A model generated the notes under the pieces. It did not search any database, was not told where the DNA came from, and saw nothing but the letters and a program-made list of their open reading frames with translations. A stretch of 64,000 nt of DNA, taken from NCBI RefSeq assembly GCF_004014855.1, contig NZ_CP034930.1, positions 372,001 to 436,000 of the forward strand. Direction: 5' to 3'. The position numbers and the translations under genes were made by a program. This document shows, one piece after another, positions 5,581 to 39,407 of this stretch (the first letter of the stretch is position 1; the number at the start of each line of letters is the position of its first letter). The stretch is from Apibacter raozihei. GTDB lineage: Bacteria; Bacteroidota; Bacteroidia; Flavobacteriales; Weeksellaceae.

Positions 5581-7356
5581 TTATATTACAAATTCCTGAG
5601 CTCTGATGTGTGCATTCCACATTCTTTGATATAGCTGGCTGTTAAGCAACAAATCCGCATGTTTACCTTTATCTGTAATTCTGCCTTTGTCAAAAACCAG
5701 TATCTGATCAGCATCTACAATGGTACTCAGCCGGTGTGCAATAATCAAAACCGTTTTATTTTTAATTAATTCACTGAATGCCTGCTGTATTTTGTATTCG
5801 TTTTCAGAGTCAGCAAAGGCCGTCGCTTCATCCAGAATAAGGATGGGAGCCTCTTTTAGTATAGCTCTTGCATGTTGAATTCTTTGCTGCTCCCCTCCGC
5901 TAAGGTGTACCCCCGATTGTCCGAATAAGGTGTTATACCCTTGCGGAAGACTCATAATAAGATCATGTATCTGGGCAGCTTTGGCCGCCTGTTCAACTTC
6001 TTGTAAGGTTTTATTCATACCCATACGAATATTTTCTAACAAGCTGTCCTGAAACATGAAACTGTCCTGAAATACAAATGATACTAATTTCATCAGTTGT
6101 TCTGTCGGATACTCTTTTATATTAATTCCTCCTATTTGCACAGAGCCTTCATTCACATCCCAAAACCTGGATAAAAGCTGTCCTACAGTACTTTTTCCTG
6201 CTCCTGAGGGGCCTACCAATGCTGTAATACTTTTTTCTCTGACCTGAAAACTGACATCTGTTAAAACATTTTGATTTTCTTTATAGCTGAAAGTAACATT
6301 TACAAACTCAACATGATTGGCTTCTGAATTTTGTAAGGTTTTATTTTCAGGTAATACTTCCTGGTAAACCAATTGATCAATTTGTTCTACTCCTCTGTTA
6401 ATAATGGAAAGTTGCATTCCCATATTACTTAGCACAAAGAGAGGTTTTATATATCCGGTCCCTAGTATCAGGAATAATAACAGCACAGGTAAAGTAACTC
6501 CGTTCTTAAAATATAAATACAGCCCCAGTGCTAAAACAGGAAGCATAGCATTGCTTATAAAACTCATAAATACAGCAAATGCAGGCGTACTACTCCGTAT
6601 CCATTCATTTACAAAATGATTATAATTTTTTACTGTATTTCCATATTTATTGAAAGTTTCTGCAGACTGCCCGAAAATCTTCATTACGGGCATTGCTCTT
6701 ACGTACTCTACAATACCGGCATTCATATCTTCCAGAGATTGATGATATTGCTTGATTAAAGCTTTATTCCTACCTCCGTACAAAACAGGAATCCAGACAG
6801 CCAGTATGGATAAGGGTAAAAAACTGATAAGCGCCAGCCTCCAATCCTGACTAAACAGATAACCAATGGTTATAATCGGCAAAGCAATCCCTTTAATAAA
6901 ATCGGGTATTTGATGAGCTATAAAATTTTCAATCCTTTCCACATCGTCTGAAAGTATTTTTTTAAGTGATCCGGAATTGTTGTTATTGAGAAATCCCATA
7001 GGAAGCCTCCCCACTTTTTCTGTAATATGCTTGCGAAGTTCAAACAAAATACTAAATGCAGCAATATGAGATAATATAACTGAACCATAGAATACGCACA
7101 TACTTATAATTGCTGCTATTACAGCATAGACTATATATTCCTTAATTATTTCAAAATTAATCGATTCCTGAGCTAATTCTTTTATGATGTAGAATACAAG
7201 TATATAAGGTATCATACTCAGCAAAGCATGAACAATTGCTAAAAAATCTGAAATAAAAAGAAGACCTTTTCTTCTTCCAGCAATTTCAAGCAATCGTAAA
7301 ATCCCGTTTTTCCTGTTTTTATCTTTATCCATATTCAAAAGATCTTTGATTATCAA
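5581..7356 (-). CDS. ABC transporter, fused permease-ATPase half-transporter (YbtP/Q- or IrtA/B-like), subunit 2; first operon gene
   Basis: A 591-residue ABC half-transporter with an N-terminal six-helix membrane domain and a C-terminal ATPase: Walker A GPSGAGKST, Q-loop FVFQDSFMFQDS, signature LSGGEQQRIQHARAIL, Walker B ILILDEATAFADSENE and switch His in LIIAHRLSTI. The D-loop reads AFAD rather than SALD/SLD, a small difference from its partner. It is the first cistron of the six-gene minus-strand operon running to 650, and a Bacteroidetes -7 box lies at 7394-7387. It likely forms a heterodimer with the 575-residue subunit at 1591-3318. Together with SIP and the AraC regulator this suggests ferric-siderophore import. 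Export of a metallophore is the alternative. Confidence 0.85.
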   Translation of the reverse strand: MIIKDLLNMDKDKNRKNGILRLLEIAGRRKGLLFISDFLAIVHALLSMIPYILVFYIIKELAQESINFEIIKEYIVYAVIAAIISMCVFYGSVILSHIAAFSILFELRKHITEKVGRLPMGFLNNNNSGSLKKILSDDVERIENFIAHQIPDFIKGIALPIITIGYLFSQDWRLALISFLPLSILAVWIPVLYGGRNKALIKQYHQSLEDMNAGIVEYVRAMPVMKIFGQSAETFNKYGNTVKNYNHFVNEWIRSSTPAFAVFMSFISNAMLPVLALGLYLYFKNGVTLPVLLLFLILGTGYIKPLFVLSNMGMQLSIINRGVEQIDQLVYQEVLPENKTLQNSEANHVEFVNVTFSYKENQNVLTDVSFQVREKSITALVGPSGAGKSTVGQLLSRFWDVNEGSVQIGGINIKEYPTEQLMKLVSFVFQDSFMFQDSLLENIRMGMNKTLQEVEQAAKAAQIHDLIMSLPQGYNTLFGQSGVHLSGGEQQRIQHARAILKEAPILILDEATAFADSENEYKIQQAFSELIKNKTVLIIAHRLSTIVDADQILVFDKGRITDKGKHADLLLNSQLYQRMWNAHIRAQEFVI

Positions 7357-7378
7357 GAATGATTCTAAATAATTTATC

Positions 7379-7394
7379 TATTTTTGCAAATATA
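7379..7394. promoter_or_regulatory. Overlapping divergent -7 boxes between the ABC/SIP operon and the second AraC gene
   Basis: The 16-bp segment TATTTTTGCAAATATA reads TATTTTTG on the plus strand (7379-7386) and TATATTTG on the minus strand (7394-7387). Both match TAnnTTTG. The minus box would give a leader of about 25 nt to the gene starting at 7356. The plus box would give about 95 nt to the gene at 7488. No convincing -33 TTG was seen for either. Confidence 0.4.
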
Positions 7395-7487
7395 TCAGAT
7401 TGAAGGATTCATTGAGGGACGCTAAACGGAGTAATAGTTCCGCGATAAGGATAATTAGAATATCTGGCAGATAAAAAATGAAACTAT

Positions 7488-8471
7488 ATGGCTCTACGAT
7501 TGTATAATAAAGACGGAACCAAACTTTTTATGGAAAGCGAATTCCCTTGTATATCTCATACCTCAGATGGGGTTATCTGTGAAAATATTATTAGTATTGA
7601 ACCTCCTTTTGGAAGAGGATATTATAAGGAAATTTATTTTGAAGGGATACATATCGGCTTTGGTGCTGCTTCTCTAAATGAAAATACTGTCTTTTACTTT
7701 GAAAGTGATGATGAAACTGTAGAAATGCATTTTTCGTTGAAGGGTAAAAATACGGCTTTTTCTGATAAGTTTTCTTCTAGTATAGGGTTTGAGGCAAATC
7801 AGCATAATCTAATTTATGCCAATCAGATCAATGGAAAAATGCAATGGGAAAGCACGGAATTTCATCTGTGTGAAATTAATTTTAATCCAAATGTTTTCAA
7901 GCGTTTTTTACCTGATGAAAAACTTTTCAACGATTTTAAAAATTCTATGGAAAATGGAAAATCAGGTTCTTTTAGTCCAAACAATTTCTGTATGAAGCCT
8001 CAAATGTATCAAATAATAAAGGAAATTATAGGATGTGAGAGAAAAGGGATCTATAAAAAAATGTTTCTCGAATCTAAAATTATTGAGTTATTATTAGTAC
8101 AGCTGGAACAAATCACCACTCAGGAAAACCAAATCCATTCCCTTAAGAAAAAGGATATAGACAAGATCTATGCTGTTAGAGAAATAATTATCAACAACCT
8201 TAATAAAAACATATCTCTCATTGAATTAGCACATCGGGTAGGCACGAATGAATTTATGCTAAAAAAAGGTTTTAAAGAACTATTCGGAACTACTGTTTTT
8301 AATTTTTGGAATGACACAAAAATGGAACAGGCAAAATCTATGATTATCCATCAGGATGTAAATATCAAAGAAATATCAGATTTGATCGGTTATAAAAATC
8401 AAAGACATTTTACCACTGCATTTAAACGCAAATTCGGAATACCTCCTAGCCAGCTGAAGAATAAATTTTAA
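7488..8471 (+). CDS. AraC-family transcriptional regulator (PchR-like), divergent to the siderophore-type operon
   Basis: A 327-residue protein, the same length as its paralog at 650-1633. Its C-terminal double HTH (about 225-325) includes GTNEFMLKKGFKELFG and GYKNQRHFTTAFKRKFGIPP. The N-terminal domain (1-200) is a sensing domain with little similarity to cupin types recognisable by eye. It is divergently transcribed from the ABC/SIP operon, with 131 bp between start codons, so it is well placed to control that promoter. Two paralogous regulators bracketing one operon suggests separate inducers or heterologous control. Family assignment is certain; target and ligand are inferred. Confidence 0.8.
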   Translation: MALRLYNKDGTKLFMESEFPCISHTSDGVICENIISIEPPFGRGYYKEIYFEGIHIGFGAASLNENTVFYFESDDETVEMHFSLKGKNTAFSDKFSSSIGFEANQHNLIYANQINGKMQWESTEFHLCEINFNPNVFKRFLPDEKLFNDFKNSMENGKSGSFSPNNFCMKPQMYQIIKEIIGCERKGIYKKMFLESKIIELLLVQLEQITTQENQIHSLKKKDIDKIYAVREIIINNLNKNISLIELAHRVGTNEFMLKKGFKELFGTTVFNFWNDTKMEQAKSMIIHQDVNIKEISDLIGYKNQRHFTTAFKRKFGIPPSQLKNKF

Positions 8472-18580: not shown

Positions 18581-18625
18581 ATGCATTTTTCACTAATTTT
18601 ATAAGTCTATTTTTATATAAAACAT

Positions 18626-19438
18626 ATGCGACAAATAAGCAATAAAAGATTCTGTCTGGTAGTTTTTGCTATGCTTTTAACCTTTTCTGCTGAACTTCAT
18701 GCCTGGGGACTAACCGGACATAGGGTTGTGGCTGAAATAGCCGAAAGAAATTTAAATCGTAAGGCAAAAAAAGAAATAAAAAAACTGTTGGAAGGATCTT
18801 CTATGGCTTATTGGGCAAACTGGCCCGATGAAATAAGATCTGACTCTACCCTTAGCTGGCAACATACTTTTAACTGGCATTACGTAAACTTTCAATCAGG
18901 ACTTACCTTCGAGCAACTTTCTGTCAATCTTGAAAACTACCCGGTAGAAAATATATATTCCGCCATCAATCTAAATACAACAAAATTAAAAAATGAATCA
19001 CTTTCTTTAAGCGAAAGAAGGGTTTCCCTTTATTTCTTGATTCATTTAATAGGAGATCTGGAACAACCTCTTCACATAGGTCGCGAGGAAGATTTAGGGG
19101 GCAACAAGATTGAAGTAAACTGGTTTTCATCAAAAACTAATTTACATTCTGTATGGGATTCCAAATTAATTGATTATTATAAATATAGCTATACTGAATA
19201 TTCCTCCTTACTTGATATTCATTCAAAAAAAGTAAATAAAAATTTAGCTAGTGGTGATTTAAAATACTGGATATATGATTCGTATTTGTTGGCCGATAAA
19301 GTGTATGATGAAATAAAAACCTACGAAAAACTGGATTATCAATATGCATATTATCATAAGGAAATACTGGATCTCCAACTTCTAAAAGGCGGCCTTCGCC
19401 TGGCAAAGGTACTGAATGAAATATTTTCAAATTATTAA
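18626..19438 (+). CDS. S1/P1 nuclease family protein, exported
   Basis: A 270-residue protein with a signal peptide (FCLVVFAMLLTFSAELHA), after which mature Trp-Gly (WGLTGHRVV) would supply the N-terminal tryptophan zinc ligand typical of P1 nuclease. Other ligands are visible: His in GHRVVAEIAE, Asp in WPDEIRSD, His in FNWHYVNF, His/Asp in FLIHLIGDLEQPLHIG and His/Asp in NLHSVWDSKLI. All three zinc sites appear complete. It is a secreted or periplasmic phosphodiesterase degrading single-stranded nucleic acids with 3'-nucleotidase activity, probably for phosphate or nucleoside scavenging. It follows the symporter by 45 bp but no coupling is evident. Confidence 0.9.
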   Translation: MRQISNKRFCLVVFAMLLTFSAELHAWGLTGHRVVAEIAERNLNRKAKKEIKKLLEGSSMAYWANWPDEIRSDSTLSWQHTFNWHYVNFQSGLTFEQLSVNLENYPVENIYSAINLNTTKLKNESLSLSERRVSLYFLIHLIGDLEQPLHIGREEDLGGNKIEVNWFSSKTNLHSVWDSKLIDYYKYSYTEYSSLLDIHSKKVNKNLASGDLKYWIYDSYLLADKVYDEIKTYEKLDYQYAYYHKEILDLQLLKGGLRLAKVLNEIFSNY

Positions 19439-19576
19439 CCTTAAAATTCAGTAAACTTAAAAATCTTTTTCAATACTTTATATGTACAACAAATAATTAA
19501 GTGATGATAAATTAAATATGAATCATAGTTATTAATTGCTTTTATTTTATTGTTTTATCCATTTAATTCCATACAA

Positions 19577-21511
19577 TCAAGTCAAACGGGACATAGGCCT
19601 TTGGGAATCCGGAACATCAACTCCCATGGCCATCCATACCAATACTCCATATGCTAAGGAGGTAAATAAAACATCATTTCGCCAGACAAAATGAAGATTC
19701 ATTTCAGGCGAAGAAAACATACTGAGAATAATACCTGCCATTGCAAAACCTACCGCTAACCATTGATAAACAGACAAATGTGAATACGAAGGTGTTTGAG
19801 GCTCTCCGCGGAAAGCTTCTTCAAAAAAACGAAAACAGGCACTAAAAAACAGATACAACCCAATGATCAGGGAAGCAGGTAAACCATGAAATGCTAAAGT
19901 CCATAACAAAATTATAAGGAATGAATTACCTATAATGGAATATAACTGAGTAGGATAAACCGGTCGATTGTACAGTCCGGCAATACGCACCACCCGGTTC
20001 AGCGGTTTCCGGTAATGTACTCCGTGTTTTTCATTACATACCCTGCCGTGGCAACACCCTTGCACAAAACAGCGCAAACGTCCTACTGCCTGAACCCAAG
20101 GAGCTACACAGGCAAAAGCCGCACTTAACTGCCAGAAATCCTGAAATCCTACCAAAATCATCGCAACGGAACCTCCGAATACTCCTCCATAGTAACCGAA
20201 AGGACGCATCAATTGACTGGATGCTTCCAGCCATTGCCCCCAGATTCCGGCTCCTACCAATCCTGCCAGACTGACTACTGCAAGTTTCCAGAAAGGAATC
20301 TGAGGTAAGAAAAGGCCCATCAGCAACAATCCAAAACCAGAAGCCAAACCTACATACACTCCGTGATTTATAATCCGAACCTTACCTACTTTCCATTCCT
20401 GCCAGCTATTTGCCAGTTTTTCACAATAAAGCAATATCATTTTGTAAATCTGTGAATATTGAAGAGATACAAGCATCAGTATAAATCCGGAAACTACGTC
20501 CAATACTGAATGAACTCCGGTAAGGATACAACTTATACTTATAAGCATTGCTATTCCCCAAGATATCCATTTTGATATAATTTCCTTCCATACAATCACA
20601 GACAGACAAGCCCAGAATACATGAAGGGAAGGAAATGCACAGGCCGACGTATCCATCTCCCGTTGTATTTGCAGCCATTCTCCCCAAACATCCCGTACAA
20701 TGAACGGACGCGGGGTTGCTCCTAATGGAAAAAGTACAAAACAGGAAAATCCGATCATGCTACCTAAAATTCCGGCAAACATAAACCTTCGTAATGACTT
20801 TTGGCTTTTAGCTACTAACGGGACTATGGCTACCCAAAGATAGGTTACTAAATATGGAATTACGGCCCAAGTTTGTACTTTCCAGGTATATTCTACAGAA
20901 AAATACGTATCATGTAAATTTTCAACTGGAAGCAGTTCTGACAAATACAGATAAATTAACAGCCAGGGAATCAATATAAAAAAATAGGCTGCCAGACGAT
21001 TTCCTGCTGTTGGTTTTTTGTTACTGAAAGCTGGAAAAACCGTTTCGGCTTCTTTATATTCTTTGCCGAATCTTCTCTGCAAATCAGGAATTTCATATCC
21101 AAATAATAAAACAAAAATTCCCACGATAAAACAAGGTATTATGATCCATACTCCGGAAGCTAATCCAAATAAAAAAAAGATTCCGGCTAAAGTAAGTACA
21201 CTTCCCAAATAAATTGGATGGGAAATCCAGCGGTAAACTCCTTTTCGCACAAATTCGGAAGGGGGAAATGCATTCATAGGCAATCCTTTTCCATCTTTCC
21301 ACAAATGCCACATTCCTTTAATCATAAACCAAATTCCAGACACAATAAAAAGAACCGGAAGATAAATCCCTGTTTTTACTTTGGGTAATCCGGGAATCAA
21401 AATATCCAGTCGATAAGCCCAAAACCCTAAAATAACCGGAAGCACAAAACAAAACATTGCTCCATAAACTATTTTACCTATTGTACTGTCTTTAGAAAAT
21501 AACTGTTTCAT
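19577..21511 (-). CDS. Triple-domain membrane protein: ICMT/PEMT-like methyltransferase + PAP2 (AUR1-like) + Lgt-like
   Basis: A 644-residue polytopic protein with three recognisable lipid-enzyme modules. Residues 45-162: isoprenylcysteine methyltransferase/PEMT-like (GVYRWISHPIYLG with His98-Pro99, then GYEIPDLQRRFGKEY). Residues 170-350: PAP2 superfamily of the AUR1 type (ATPRPF at 265-270, FPSLH at 293-297, TGVHSVLD with His334 and Asp338). Residues 380-605: Lgt-like (YYGG at 440-443, GRLRCFVQGCCHG from 477, YPTQLY from 519, RFFEEAFRGE from 561). In the Lgt part the loop usually reading HGG is YYGG and HPTQLY is YPTQLY, so it may not be a standard prolipoprotein transferase. It overlaps the upstream gene by 20 bp, implying translational coupling. 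Domains are seen in the sequence; a lipid-remodelling role is inference. Confidence 0.75.
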   Translation of the reverse strand: MKQLFSKDSTIGKIVYGAMFCFVLPVILGFWAYRLDILIPGLPKVKTGIYLPVLFIVSGIWFMIKGMWHLWKDGKGLPMNAFPPSEFVRKGVYRWISHPIYLGSVLTLAGIFFLFGLASGVWIIIPCFIVGIFVLLFGYEIPDLQRRFGKEYKEAETVFPAFSNKKPTAGNRLAAYFFILIPWLLIYLYLSELLPVENLHDTYFSVEYTWKVQTWAVIPYLVTYLWVAIVPLVAKSQKSLRRFMFAGILGSMIGFSCFVLFPLGATPRPFIVRDVWGEWLQIQREMDTSACAFPSLHVFWACLSVIVWKEIISKWISWGIAMLISISCILTGVHSVLDVVSGFILMLVSLQYSQIYKMILLYCEKLANSWQEWKVGKVRIINHGVYVGLASGFGLLLMGLFLPQIPFWKLAVVSLAGLVGAGIWGQWLEASSQLMRPFGYYGGVFGGSVAMILVGFQDFWQLSAAFACVAPWVQAVGRLRCFVQGCCHGRVCNEKHGVHYRKPLNRVVRIAGLYNRPVYPTQLYSIIGNSFLIILLWTLAFHGLPASLIIGLYLFFSACFRFFEEAFRGEPQTPSYSHLSVYQWLAVGFAMAGIILSMFSSPEMNLHFVWRNDVLFTSLAYGVLVWMAMGVDVPDSQRPMSRLT

Positions 21512-22265
21512 CTATAATCCATCCTTTATGTATATTCCCAGATTCTGTTTTTAATTCCCCTGGTGCCAAACGTTTGTATTCATTTATATTTAAAACACTT
21601 TCAGGAAAGAGCATTTTTAACATGGGTGTCCGTTTAAATGCAGTATCCTTTAACAATCCGTTTCGTATTGTATGTCCCTGCTGAATTTCCAGTCTTCCTG
21701 CTTTGTATTCAATAAATGAATCCTTTATTTTTATATTTTGTTGCAAATTTCCATCTAAAAATAACCATTGTTTTTCACCGCTATCTTTTAATTTCCAGTG
21801 AATCCAGACCAAAGCAATCTGTTCCGAAACAAATCGTCCCCAACGCAGAATTTTTATTGGAAGTTTCCAAGGAGGTAAATCTATACTCATACATTCCACA
21901 TATCCTAACCCTGTATAATTTTGTCCTGAAATTTTTGCCTGTGCTCGTGCTCGTGGAAGTATGTTATTCCAGATTACTTCTCCTTCTCCGGATTTCCAAA
22001 GGCTGACAGGAGTAGTTCTACTCTCTCCGGATTTCCATATAATTTTACTATTAAATTCGTCTGAATTCCAAAAATACTCAGCCTGATTTTCTTCAGGAAA
22101 TTCATATTTGAGACTGTATTTTTCAATAAATGATTCTTTCGGACTTCCTTGTAAAAATGCAGAGTAACCCAGAGGAATCCCCATTAATTTTAATTTTGCA
22201 GCATATGCTATACATGTCATTCCTTTATCATCGATAAAATCCATGTACCACTTTACAAGTTTCAT
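21492..22265 (-). CDS. Conserved protein of unknown function, coupled to the triple-domain lipid enzyme
   Basis: A 257-residue soluble-looking protein without a signal peptide or membrane segments. It is rich in beta-strand patterns and Trp, with the notable segment NYTGLGYVECMSIDLPPWKLP followed by RWGRF and ALVWIHWKL. The tandem SGESRTTPVSLW and SGEGEVIW strands suggest a beta-barrel, perhaps lipocalin/AttH-CrtC-like, but I cannot assign a family with confidence. It is translated just ahead of the triple-domain gene with a 20-bp overlap, so the two products are likely made together and may act on the same lipid substrate. Function not established. Confidence 0.7.
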   Translation of the reverse strand: MKLVKWYMDFIDDKGMTCIAYAAKLKLMGIPLGYSAFLQGSPKESFIEKYSLKYEFPEENQAEYFWNSDEFNSKIIWKSGESRTTPVSLWKSGEGEVIWNNILPRARAQAKISGQNYTGLGYVECMSIDLPPWKLPIKILRWGRFVSEQIALVWIHWKLKDSGEKQWLFLDGNLQQNIKIKDSFIEYKAGRLEIQQGHTIRNGLLKDTAFKRTPMLKMLFPESVLNINEYKRLAPGELKTESGNIHKGWIIDETVIF

Positions 22266-22501
22266 AATAATATAAATAGTTTTATATATTAACCTTTGTT
22301 ACTTTTTTTATTGTTTATTTTTTTTAATATAAACAATAAATTAAATTCTTTTAATTAAAAAAACTATTTAAATATGTAAATTTATTCAAAAACTGTTTAT
22401 TGAATTCAAATAATGGGATAATAAATAATTTATCCAGTTATTAAAGGTTAAAAAATATGAAATTAGAGTTTATCCCTGTAAAATACTTAAAACAAAATTT
22501 G

Positions 22502-22521
22502 TAAGATAATTTTTTATCTTA
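22502..22521 (-). terminator. Weak hairpin downstream of the transporter-thioesterase gene
   Basis: An 8-bp perfect stem TAAGATAA/TTATCTTA with a 4-nt loop, 36 bp beyond the stop at 22557 on the minus strand. The rest of 22266-22556 is AT-rich and shows nothing else. Confidence 0.3.
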
Positions 22522-22556
22522 ATTTTAATCACAAACAAAAGTACTTATTTTATTAA

Positions 22557-24431
22557 TTACATATAAGGCATAAAAGCTTTAATTACTTCCGGCGGAATAT
22601 CCAGAATTTTATAATCTTTAGGAGAAACAAATATTAATTGTTGTTTGCCCTTTCCTAATAAATTTCCAGCAGAGTCAAAAACCTGATGTTCTAAAGTTGC
22701 AAACTTTCGGTTGTACTCTGATGCACGTATTTTAACACTGATTTTTTCAAATTCCCTGGTTTCATTAATATATTTGTGCTCGAATGAACGGGTAAGAATT
22801 AAAAAAGTAGTATCCTTTAAATTAAAATCTGGCAATACGTAATTAAAAAACAATTCCCTTGTTTTTCCTACCCATAATGCATATACTCCGAAATAAACAT
22901 TCCCTACAGAGTTAGTATCTGCATAAGTCGCCATAAAAGAGTGTACAAACCATTTTCCTTCAAAATGACTGCCTGTGCTTACTTCTTCAGTTTTACCATT
23001 TATAACCGTTTGAGTAGCTTTTGAAAGAGTCCTTAACACTGGTATCTCTGATGCTGCATCCATAACTTCTTCTACTTTTTCCTTAACAACTCTAAGTAAA
23101 TCTGTATTAAGAACCAGCCAGATAACGTAAAATATAGGTAAAATAGACCCCATAATCATTACCCACGCTACCTGCATAAAATATCCACTGGCAAAAACCA
23201 CTAAAGAAAACGCTCCTATTGAAAAAAGTTTAACCTGAGGAAGTGAATGCTGTGAATTAGGTACAAAACACCGTGCAATTCCCAAGGCAGCATAAGCAAC
23301 AAAAAACGTTGCATAAAACACCATAAAATATTCAATTTCACAGTCGGTAAGAACCCCGAAAACAGCTATAAGTGCTGCTGTAAGATATGTAACTATTGGT
23401 GAGTCTATAATATTAGATGGAATCATAGAAAGCACCGGGTTATTACTGGTTTTGGAATTCTCTTTAAGAAACCATTTAGTAGCAACATAGCCACTATCAA
23501 GGGTAGTCAAAACGGCAAGTGCTATAAAACAATAATAACCTGCAGGAACCCACCAGGGCATTACAGAATGAAAATACACCATATAGTTTACAATCATTTC
23601 GTGACCATAGGTAAGTCCTCCTAAGCCAACGGATGCCATATCCTGAGAGAACCAGTCACTATTGAATACGTAACTGGCTAATACTCCATGAAAAATGAGA
23701 AATAAAAAAAACAATAAAGCTCCAAAAAAATATCCGGAGGCTATATTTGTATTCTCTTTTCGCATTTGTATAGCTCTCTGCCACTGCTGTAAATCGAGCC
23801 AGGGACCTACAAAAAAACCTATGAGAATAGGTATCATATATCCCCAAAATATAGGTTTACTGTTATTTTCAGTTATCCATGCTGCAGGGTCATTAAGCAC
23901 CTGCGGTTGTAAATATAAAAGTAAAGCACTAGCTATAACGGCTATAAGAATTCCTACTAATAAATGCCAGTATTTAATAGATTTTATGGTAAACTCTTCC
24001 CCCACCAGACATGCTGCGGATAATACCAGAGCAACAACTAAAAGCAAAGTAAATAATTGAAGTATGCTTCCCTGTTCATCCCATCCTGGCCAATAGGATA
24101 TGAGTAACGGACGAAGTAAATAATTTACAATGGCAAATATAGTAAGTGCTACAGCTAAAAGCTGATATAGATATAAACTTAAACGAAAAGGTTTGGACCA
24201 TCTCTTAAAAAATCTTTCCAGAGATTCTTGCCCCTTATCTCTCTGTGCTATCTTTTGTGTTCCGTATCCAAACATAAATAATCCGAGTGCATTTAAAAAT
24301 GCAAAACTAAACAGACCTGTCAGACCAAATAAAAAGGTCATTTGCACTGAAAAAAATAATCCTAATCCCCACAACCAGGATAAAGCTACTGAATTACCCC
24401 AAAAAAAGGAGTTAACTAATTTGTATTTCAT
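22557..24431 (-). CDS. Transporter-like membrane domain fused to a C-terminal hotdog acyl-CoA thioesterase domain
   Basis: A 624-residue protein. Residues 1-440 contain about 12-13 hydrophobic segments and resemble sodium:solute symporter (SSS/APC-fold) proteins, with the stretch FFVGPWLDLQQWQRAIQM near 200-220 and VLTTLDSGYVATKWF near 310. After a charged linker (about 440-488), residues 490-620 form a 4-hydroxybenzoyl-CoA thioesterase-type hotdog domain: TYADTNSVGNVYFGVY with Asp505 at the usual catalytic place, then TRELFF and EYNRKFATLEHQVFDSAGNLLGKGKQQLIFVS. I do not know this fusion as a described family. It could couple uptake or sensing of an acyl compound to hydrolysis of its thioester. 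The domains are clear in outline; the activity is inferred. Confidence 0.7.
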   Translation of the reverse strand: MKYKLVNSFFWGNSVALSWLWGLGLFFSVQMTFLFGLTGLFSFAFLNALGLFMFGYGTQKIAQRDKGQESLERFFKRWSKPFRLSLYLYQLLAVALTIFAIVNYLLRPLLISYWPGWDEQGSILQLFTLLLVVALVLSAACLVGEEFTIKSIKYWHLLVGILIAVIASALLLYLQPQVLNDPAAWITENNSKPIFWGYMIPILIGFFVGPWLDLQQWQRAIQMRKENTNIASGYFFGALLFFLFLIFHGVLASYVFNSDWFSQDMASVGLGGLTYGHEMIVNYMVYFHSVMPWWVPAGYYCFIALAVLTTLDSGYVATKWFLKENSKTSNNPVLSMIPSNIIDSPIVTYLTAALIAVFGVLTDCEIEYFMVFYATFFVAYAALGIARCFVPNSQHSLPQVKLFSIGAFSLVVFASGYFMQVAWVMIMGSILPIFYVIWLVLNTDLLRVVKEKVEEVMDAASEIPVLRTLSKATQTVINGKTEEVSTGSHFEGKWFVHSFMATYADTNSVGNVYFGVYALWVGKTRELFFNYVLPDFNLKDTTFLILTRSFEHKYINETREFEKISVKIRASEYNRKFATLEHQVFDSAGNLLGKGKQQLIFVSPKDYKILDIPPEVIKAFMPYM

Positions 24432-39330: not shown

Positions 39331-39401
39331 GGCTTCGTGGCCGAGCGGCTAGGCAGAGGTCTGCAAAACCTTGTACAGCGGTTCGAATCCGCTCGAAGCC
39401 T
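39331..39401 (+). tRNA. tRNA-Cys (anticodon GCA)
   Basis: A cloverleaf can be drawn by eye. The acceptor arm GGCTTCG pairs with CGAAGCC and a T follows as discriminator (U73, the Cys identity base). The D arm is GCCGAGCGGCTAGGC. The anticodon stem is GAGGT/ACCTT with loop CTGCAAA (GCA at 39363-39365). The T arm is GCGG-TTCGAAT-CCGC. The CCA end is not encoded. Confidence 0.95.
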
Positions 39402-39407
39402 CAGAAG

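Follow-up and report, generated by a model that had tools for sequence, protein, structure and literature searches.

A candidate lipid-tailoring cassette in Apibacter raozihei pairing a methyltransferase-PAP2-Lgt-like fusion protein with a protein of predicted CrtC-type fold

In a 64,000-nucleotide stretch of Apibacter raozihei DNA (contig NZ_CP034930.1, positions 372,001 to 436,000; hereafter the window, whose own numbering is used below), taken from a single-contig genome of 3.29 Mb in the phylum Bacteroidota, three consecutive open reading frames (ORFs) lie on the minus strand. Gene c (19577-21511) encodes 644 aa, gene b (21492-22265) encodes 257 aa, and gene a (22557-24431) encodes 624 aa that combine a membrane domain with a 4HBT_2 hotdog domain. 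Genes b and c share exactly 20 bp. The gap between a and b (22266-22556) measures 291 bp at 13.7% GC, lies upstream of b and probably contains the b-c promoter. An S1/P1 nuclease gene on the plus strand (18626-19438) is convergent with c. An original prediction, drawn from the letters and their ORFs, had described three ORFs, two of them fusions, with the same overlap and gap, and had read them as one locus for an unusual membrane lipid. The ORF coordinates and the Pfam matches bear out the layout; the interpretation has to be redrawn around b and c.

Gene a is an unrelated neighbour and not a member of the cassette. Four of eight congeners keep it, at 78-80% identity, and none of the four has b or c. 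In three of these four, the order TetR-TolC-HlyD-ABC-ABC-ABC2-ABC2-a-dctA-DedA is retained without the S1/P1 nuclease, c or b, so that a directly follows dctA and the segment 18581-22556 is missing; therefore, dctA and a are separated in the window by an additional segment (approximate boundaries ~18581-22556) that holds the nuclease, c and b. The fourth congener (G003) has none of those neighbour genes, dctA included, within 19 kb around a. At no other b-c locus is there a homologue of a, and the nuclease, which shows no linkage to b-c elsewhere, is not counted as part of the cassette either. The adjacency of a, b and c on one strand had spoken for a single three-gene lipid locus, but congeners that hold a between the ABC2 genes and dctA with neither b nor c, together with the other b-c loci that all lack a, leave that proposal with next to no probability. 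As a conserved unit it is refuted by synteny, a local and recent functional coupling being its only possible form, and the co-occurrence across genomes expected for the trio is found for the b-c pair only. Since a is not part of b-c, the acyl-CoA element of the original prediction, which came from the hotdog domain (residues 504-620, 7e-9 in Pfam), falls away as well. The rest of the gene a product is an unannotated polytopic membrane domain with a weak match to phrog_20720, and the PDB search gave no match for it.

When 84,980 species genomes were scanned by profile, 188 loci proved to encode a relative of c; the best 80 of them were fetched. These 80 loci come from at least 10 phyla (Acidobacteriota, Verrucomicrobiota, Planctomycetota, Bacteroidota, Ignavibacteriota, Calditrichota, Gemmatimonadota, Myxococcota, Zixibacteria and Pseudomonadota), and at every one of them b or its remains lies upstream of c on the same strand: b is recovered by hidden Markov model (HMM) at 77, two more are truncated at the end of their contig but still show the C-terminus of b, and the last (L116) has a divergent b. 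The median b-c spacing is -4 bp, a 4-bp overlap. In a phylum-wide set of 395 genomes, eight besides that of the window match c, seven of them with full-length triple fusions, each with a b homologue directly upstream. The triple fusion is neither a chance ORF nor a frameshift artefact, since many phyla have full-length homologues that are 34-43% identical to it. No flanking gene other than b and c is generally conserved across the 80 loci, where linked genes are sporadic; no copy of b or c was found on plasmids, and PADLOC gave no match that would assign the pair to a defence system. Judged from sequence and gene order, b and c are obligate neighbours in a conserved, undescribed two-gene cassette. 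Chitinophaga hostae 2R12 and Actibacterium atlanticum are cultivable carriers of the pair. Two further observations concern individual loci: the same 12.9-kb b-c region stands on two scaffolds of Paenimyroides tangerinum (L093, L096), as a duplication or an assembly artefact, and in L103 (5756-6598) and L107 (8006-8830) an extra gene, its domain not resolved, matches the c profile a few kb or less from b-c.

The original prediction had named conservation of the gene neighbourhood in related genomes as its test, and the outcome depends on the range considered: within the genus b and c are absent from the other genomes examined, while across phyla the pair holds at 80 of 80 loci. Outside the window genome, b turned up neither in 79 relatives nor in 396 genomes from the order, and no full-length relative of c was found in the 79. 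Horizontal acquisition of b-c is likely and well supported, because the genes sit in the extra segment between dctA and a, the GC content of c is raised (40% against 32.5% for the window), and in a tree of 67 c proteins that of the window groups with four Verrucomicrobiota (support 100/96).

The c protein begins with a PEMT/ICMT-like methyltransferase (residues 10-151), continues with a PAP2_3/AUR1-SMS-like domain (~154-352) and an amphipathic linker helix (352-367), and ends with an Lgt-like domain (~360-630) whose signatures are GRLRCFVQGCCHGR (477-490) and RFFEEAFRGE (561-570). All three domains exceed their Pfam cut-offs, with PEMT at 50-150 (6e-9, 36.7 bits against 25), PAP2_3 at 212-350 (2e-14) and LGT (PF01790) at 438-597 (3e-22, 79.6 bits against 24.9), so the triple domain reading made earlier stands, except that the last part is no normal diacylglyceryl-prolipoprotein enzyme. 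In the AlphaFold2 model (67 sequences, predicted local distance difference test [pLDDT] 92), the middle domain has the fold of SMSr, AUR1 (inositol phosphorylceramide synthase) and LpxE (Z ~12), and the last matches E. coli Lgt (5azb; Z 17 over 229 residues, 23% identity; HMM match 2.4e-8). The methyltransferase region (1-153) gave no match in the fold search, in which one domain can dominate, and its assignment comes from Pfam. Like the PEMT/ICMT/MddA/LmtA methyltransferases it keeps HPIYxG and E140; it differs from them in a distinct GLPMNAxPP loop and in missing the ICMT cut-off (21.2 bits against 24). The PAP2 part shares with AUR1, SMSr and LpxE the residues H297 (64/67), H334 (65/67) and D338 (64/67) and a site predicted to face outward, and is set apart by its place in a fusion, with a methyltransferase before it and an Lgt-like domain after it, and by a first motif ((K/R)x6RP-like C1) that is often degenerate (R268 in 51/67, P269 in 34/67).

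Eight residues are invariant in the 67 Lgt-like parts (R478, C481, C486, C487, H488, R561, E565 and R568). Four of these, R478, R561, E565 and R568, are the equivalents of R143, R239, E243 and R246 of E. coli Lgt (5AZB/5AZC), so c shares with that enzyme both its fold and its phosphoglycerol-binding network. These likenesses, and an LGT Pfam score well above the cut-off, would fit an alternative prolipoprotein diacylglyceryl transferase, or a lipidase of another protein-sorting tag, to which extra domains have been added. The positions that define Lgt are replaced, however. The equivalent of H103, the essential His of the HGGL motif in E. coli Lgt, is Y or F within RPxG[YF][YF]G, and the Lgt signature GRxGNFxNxE reads GRLRCLVQGCC in c, with Cys at both the N146 and E151 positions and a new invariant C-x4-GCCHG, the GCCHG of which adjoins the replaced positions. 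On the NCBIfam lgt equivalog c scores 57.7 bits, far under the cut-off of 334, and the genome already has a separate canonical lgt (707158-707931). In E. coli Lgt, the H103A/N/Q/R/Y and E151A/Q variants fail to complement (PMC4728403), so that the very replacement H103Y is non-complementing there.

The predicted orientation points the same way. Eighteen membrane spans are predicted in c, four in the PEMT part (S-adenosylmethionine loops cytoplasmic), six in the PAP2 part (catalytic loops outside) and eight in the Lgt-like part, one more at the C-terminus than in E. coli Lgt. With a mean hydropathy of -0.14, 4.4 charged residues and a conserved R and E, helix 352-367 is not a span; because of this, and because the chain is back inside after 4+6 spans, the face bearing the Lgt signature is predicted to be cytoplasmic. 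By the positive-inside rule the outcome is the same for all 67 sequences, with a net charge of +8.7 on the signature side of c against -0.8 on the other, and two PEMT-LGT fusions that lack PAP2 show the same pattern (+10/+12 against -1/0). In canonical Lgts the signs are switched, with -2 to -9 on the signature side and +6 to +11 on the cytoplasmic side. Two independent lines thus agree in the prediction that this face of c is the inverse of that of true Lgt. Processing of lipobox and MYXO-CTERM proteins is periplasmic, which is the other side of the membrane from the predicted site. An Lgt-like lipidating enzyme has been sought for MYXO-CTERM proteins (PMC11980579), and c was considered for this role and rejected on its predicted topology, no search for such tags having been made in these genomes. 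With H103, N146 and E151 replaced and the signature face predicted to be cytoplasmic, c is not a prolipoprotein Lgt; it works like a glycerolipid transferase and lacks the defining features of Lgt, and a protein-lipidating role for it is very improbable.

Stand-alone Lgt-like paralogues with CxxGCCYG share with c the change of H103 to Y and a Cys-rich signature, and differ from it in being unfused and in a charge pattern that fits the normal Lgt orientation. One of them (L196, G556:C14:407500-408800) has FYG for HGG and GRVGCFMAGCCYG, and belongs to a second uncharacterised Lgt paralogue family.

The partner protein b has no match in Pfam, NCBIfam, PHROGs or PADLOC, and its sequence profile gave no match in the PDB, so that its placement came from the fold search alone. 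Its AlphaFold2 model (62 sequences, pLDDT 96) is all beta, in line with the beta-rich character noted earlier. By Foldseek and VIA-align the model matches fungal Diels-Alderases (CghA, Fsa2 and Phm7), AttH, 25-phosphosteroid lyase and kievitone hydratase at Z 18-22 over 226-237 of the 257 residues, with the next group at ~6. On this model b belongs to the CrtC/AttH/Diels-Alderase fold superfamily, with a predicted double barrel over the whole chain. In HHalign, b pairs with CrtC-like proteins whose genes lie beside those for a glycosyltransferase and an acyltransferase (probability 94.8, E 5e-8); its W99, Y122 and E124 fall at the W, Y and D positions of an H-x-W...Y-x-D pattern. The correspondence to the numbered CrtC residues W241, Y266 and D268 was drawn from the pattern that these proteins have in common, and not from an alignment with R. 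gelatinosus CrtC. In CrtC, H239, W241, Y266 and D268 are essential, with inactive alanine mutants, and D268 is the proposed proton donor (Hiseni et al., PMC4717167). Each of W99, Y122 and E124 is conserved in 62 of 62 b homologues, and the acid is Asp, as in CrtC, in the most divergent relatives (G751, L116). Compared with the superfamily, b is ~100 residues shorter, lacks the His of the quartet, carries Glu in place of Asp and is invariably paired with c. It falls outside CrtC proper, as none of the 62 b members matches Pfam CrtC (PF07143) at E <= 1 and only three of the four quartet positions are kept, with Glu for Asp.

No prominent N-terminal signal stands out in b by hydropathy, and b is for this reason taken to be cytosolic. 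It could there act as a lipid carrier that hands its cargo to c, with all of the chemistry left to c. The lipid-binding double barrel and the strict b-c pairing fit such a role, as does the AttH-like yeast protein Svf1, which is discussed as a ceramide-transport protein (PMC10583516). A pure carrier, however, would have no need of an invariant polar triad, and that of b coincides with the CrtC catalytic positions and shows the CrtC acid in its two most divergent relatives; a carrier function is therefore rather unlikely.

Apart from b, two observations were made on CrtC-family genes. Those at L154, L155 and L156, next to genes for a GT2 glycosyltransferase and an acyltransferase, have the complete H-x-W...Y-x-D pattern and resemble carotenoid glycosyl-ester clusters. 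In L189 (1-2175, minus strand), a CrtC-family domain is apparently fused to a polyprenyl-diphosphate-synthase-like domain (DDIQDNSELRRGKPT).

We propose that the products of b and c work as a single undescribed lipid-tailoring machine, and give this reading, with its steps as set out here, a probability of about 0.5. The orientation of the sites in c is predicted; acid chemistry in b, action of the Lgt-like and methyltransferase domains on one face and a PAP2 finish on the outer face are what we infer. As a cytosolic, cofactor-free acid catalyst, b would bind a hydrophobic, unsaturated and probably isoprenoid-type chain and protonate a C=C bond, leading to hydration, cyclisation or elimination. 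The inward-facing Lgt-like domain would bind a phosphoglycerolipid through its R143/R239/E243/R246-equivalent network and move the (diacyl)glyceryl part onto a small or lipid acceptor other than a prolipoprotein, and the PEMT-like domain could methylate this product on the same cytoplasmic face. The product would then be flipped across the membrane, a step for which a dedicated ATP-binding cassette (ABC) exporter is encoded alongside in three phyla. On the outer face, the PAP2 domain of AUR1/SMS type, with its predicted periplasmic site, may remove or exchange a phospho-headgroup. The end product would be a modified membrane lipid, non-essential because of the patchy distribution of the cassette and its horizontal acquisition here. 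The unusual membrane lipid of the original prediction is thereby retained for b and c, as a membrane lipid enzyme and its co-transcribed beta-rich partner, and given up for a.

The sporadically linked genes bear on the substrate. Genes b and c are separated in an acidobacterium (L124) by an ABC ATPase-permease pair, and such a pair also lies upstream of b in a member of the Opitutaceae (L062) and beside a b'/PEMT-LGT variant in a member of the Bacteroidota (L061); these three pairs, from three phyla, are mutual best matches among all neighbours. At six Acidobacteriota loci, a UbiA prenyltransferase lies directly upstream of b, nearest to geranylgeranylglycerol-phosphate-type enzymes and under their cut-offs, and the cytochrome P450 of the L061 variant cluster is closest to terpene oxygenases. 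From these neighbours and the fold of b, the odds that the substrate chain is isoprenoid are close to even. The window genome holds neither SQS_PSY nor CrtC, and squalene and carotenoids were therefore rejected as the substrate in this organism. In congener G003 (L165), which lacks b-c, there is a phytoene-synthase-family gene with an adjacent desaturase-like ORF.

Several points weigh against the proposed machine. The window genome being without SQS_PSY, the isoprenoid idea draws on other taxa and on the fold of b, and most b-c loci stand alone with few linked genes. The His of the CrtC quartet is V, I or L in b, the inverted topology is predicted from helix counting and the positive-inside rule, and the PAP2 motifs are missing in at least one c member (L051), which suggests that PAP2 is dispensable in some lineages.

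Alternatively, the cassette could make an amino- or phospho-headgroup lipid, betaine- or phosphatidylcholine-like or sphingolipid-like, with no isoprenoid involved: the Lgt-like domain would couple diacylglycerol to an amino compound, PEMT would N-methylate it, and the AUR1/SMS-type PAP2 domain would trade headgroups. PEMT is a phospholipid N-methyltransferase family, the PAP2 part of c is closest to SMSr/AUR1, and a fold-III pyridoxal phosphate (PLP) decarboxylase comes after the PEMT-LGT fusion gene in two genomes; the lack of SQS_PSY in the window genome also fits. This scheme, however, leaves no obvious job for b, and the UbiA, terpene-type P450 and SQS-like neighbours indicate isoprenoids, so we regard it as a serious though somewhat unlikely alternative to the isoprenoid-type tailoring proposed above.

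The variant clusters themselves differ in content. That of L061 (6417-12860) consists of a b-like gene, a PEMT-LGT fusion without PAP2, a fold-III PLP decarboxylase, the P450 and the ABC exporter, and that of L261 (854-5275) of a b-like gene, a PEMT-LGT fusion without PAP2, a fold-III PLP decarboxylase and an aldehyde dehydrogenase. In L060, where the c protein has lost its PAP2 motifs, a 304-aa protein encoded directly upstream of b (6962-7876) has DDIVD and DLEEDIRNGYINI motifs and weakly resembles squalene/phytoene synthases (SQS/PSY), being too divergent for Pfam.

To our knowledge, the Lgt fold is known only for protein lipidation on the periplasmic side. If the proposed machine exists, which we hold to be an even chance, b-c would be the core of an undescribed lipid class in at least 10 phyla, joining an inverted Lgt fold, a CrtC-type acid catalyst, a methyltransferase and an outward-facing PAP2 domain. 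It would then include the first Lgt-fold enzyme, as far as known, not acting on proteins, and one membrane-enzyme domain would occur in both orientations. A cytoplasm-facing Lgt relative with two fused lipid enzymes and a fixed CrtC-like partner implies a widespread membrane lipid yet to be assigned, from a compact cassette of two genes and ~2.7 kb. The component folds are all known; what appears to be new is the b-c pair, the b family and the predicted cytoplasm-facing Lgt, for which no description was found in open-access literature or family libraries, and the previously unannotated b family gains a fold and a testable putative active site. Elsewhere in the window, the sole tRNA is a tRNA-Cys(GCA) on the plus strand (39331-39402).

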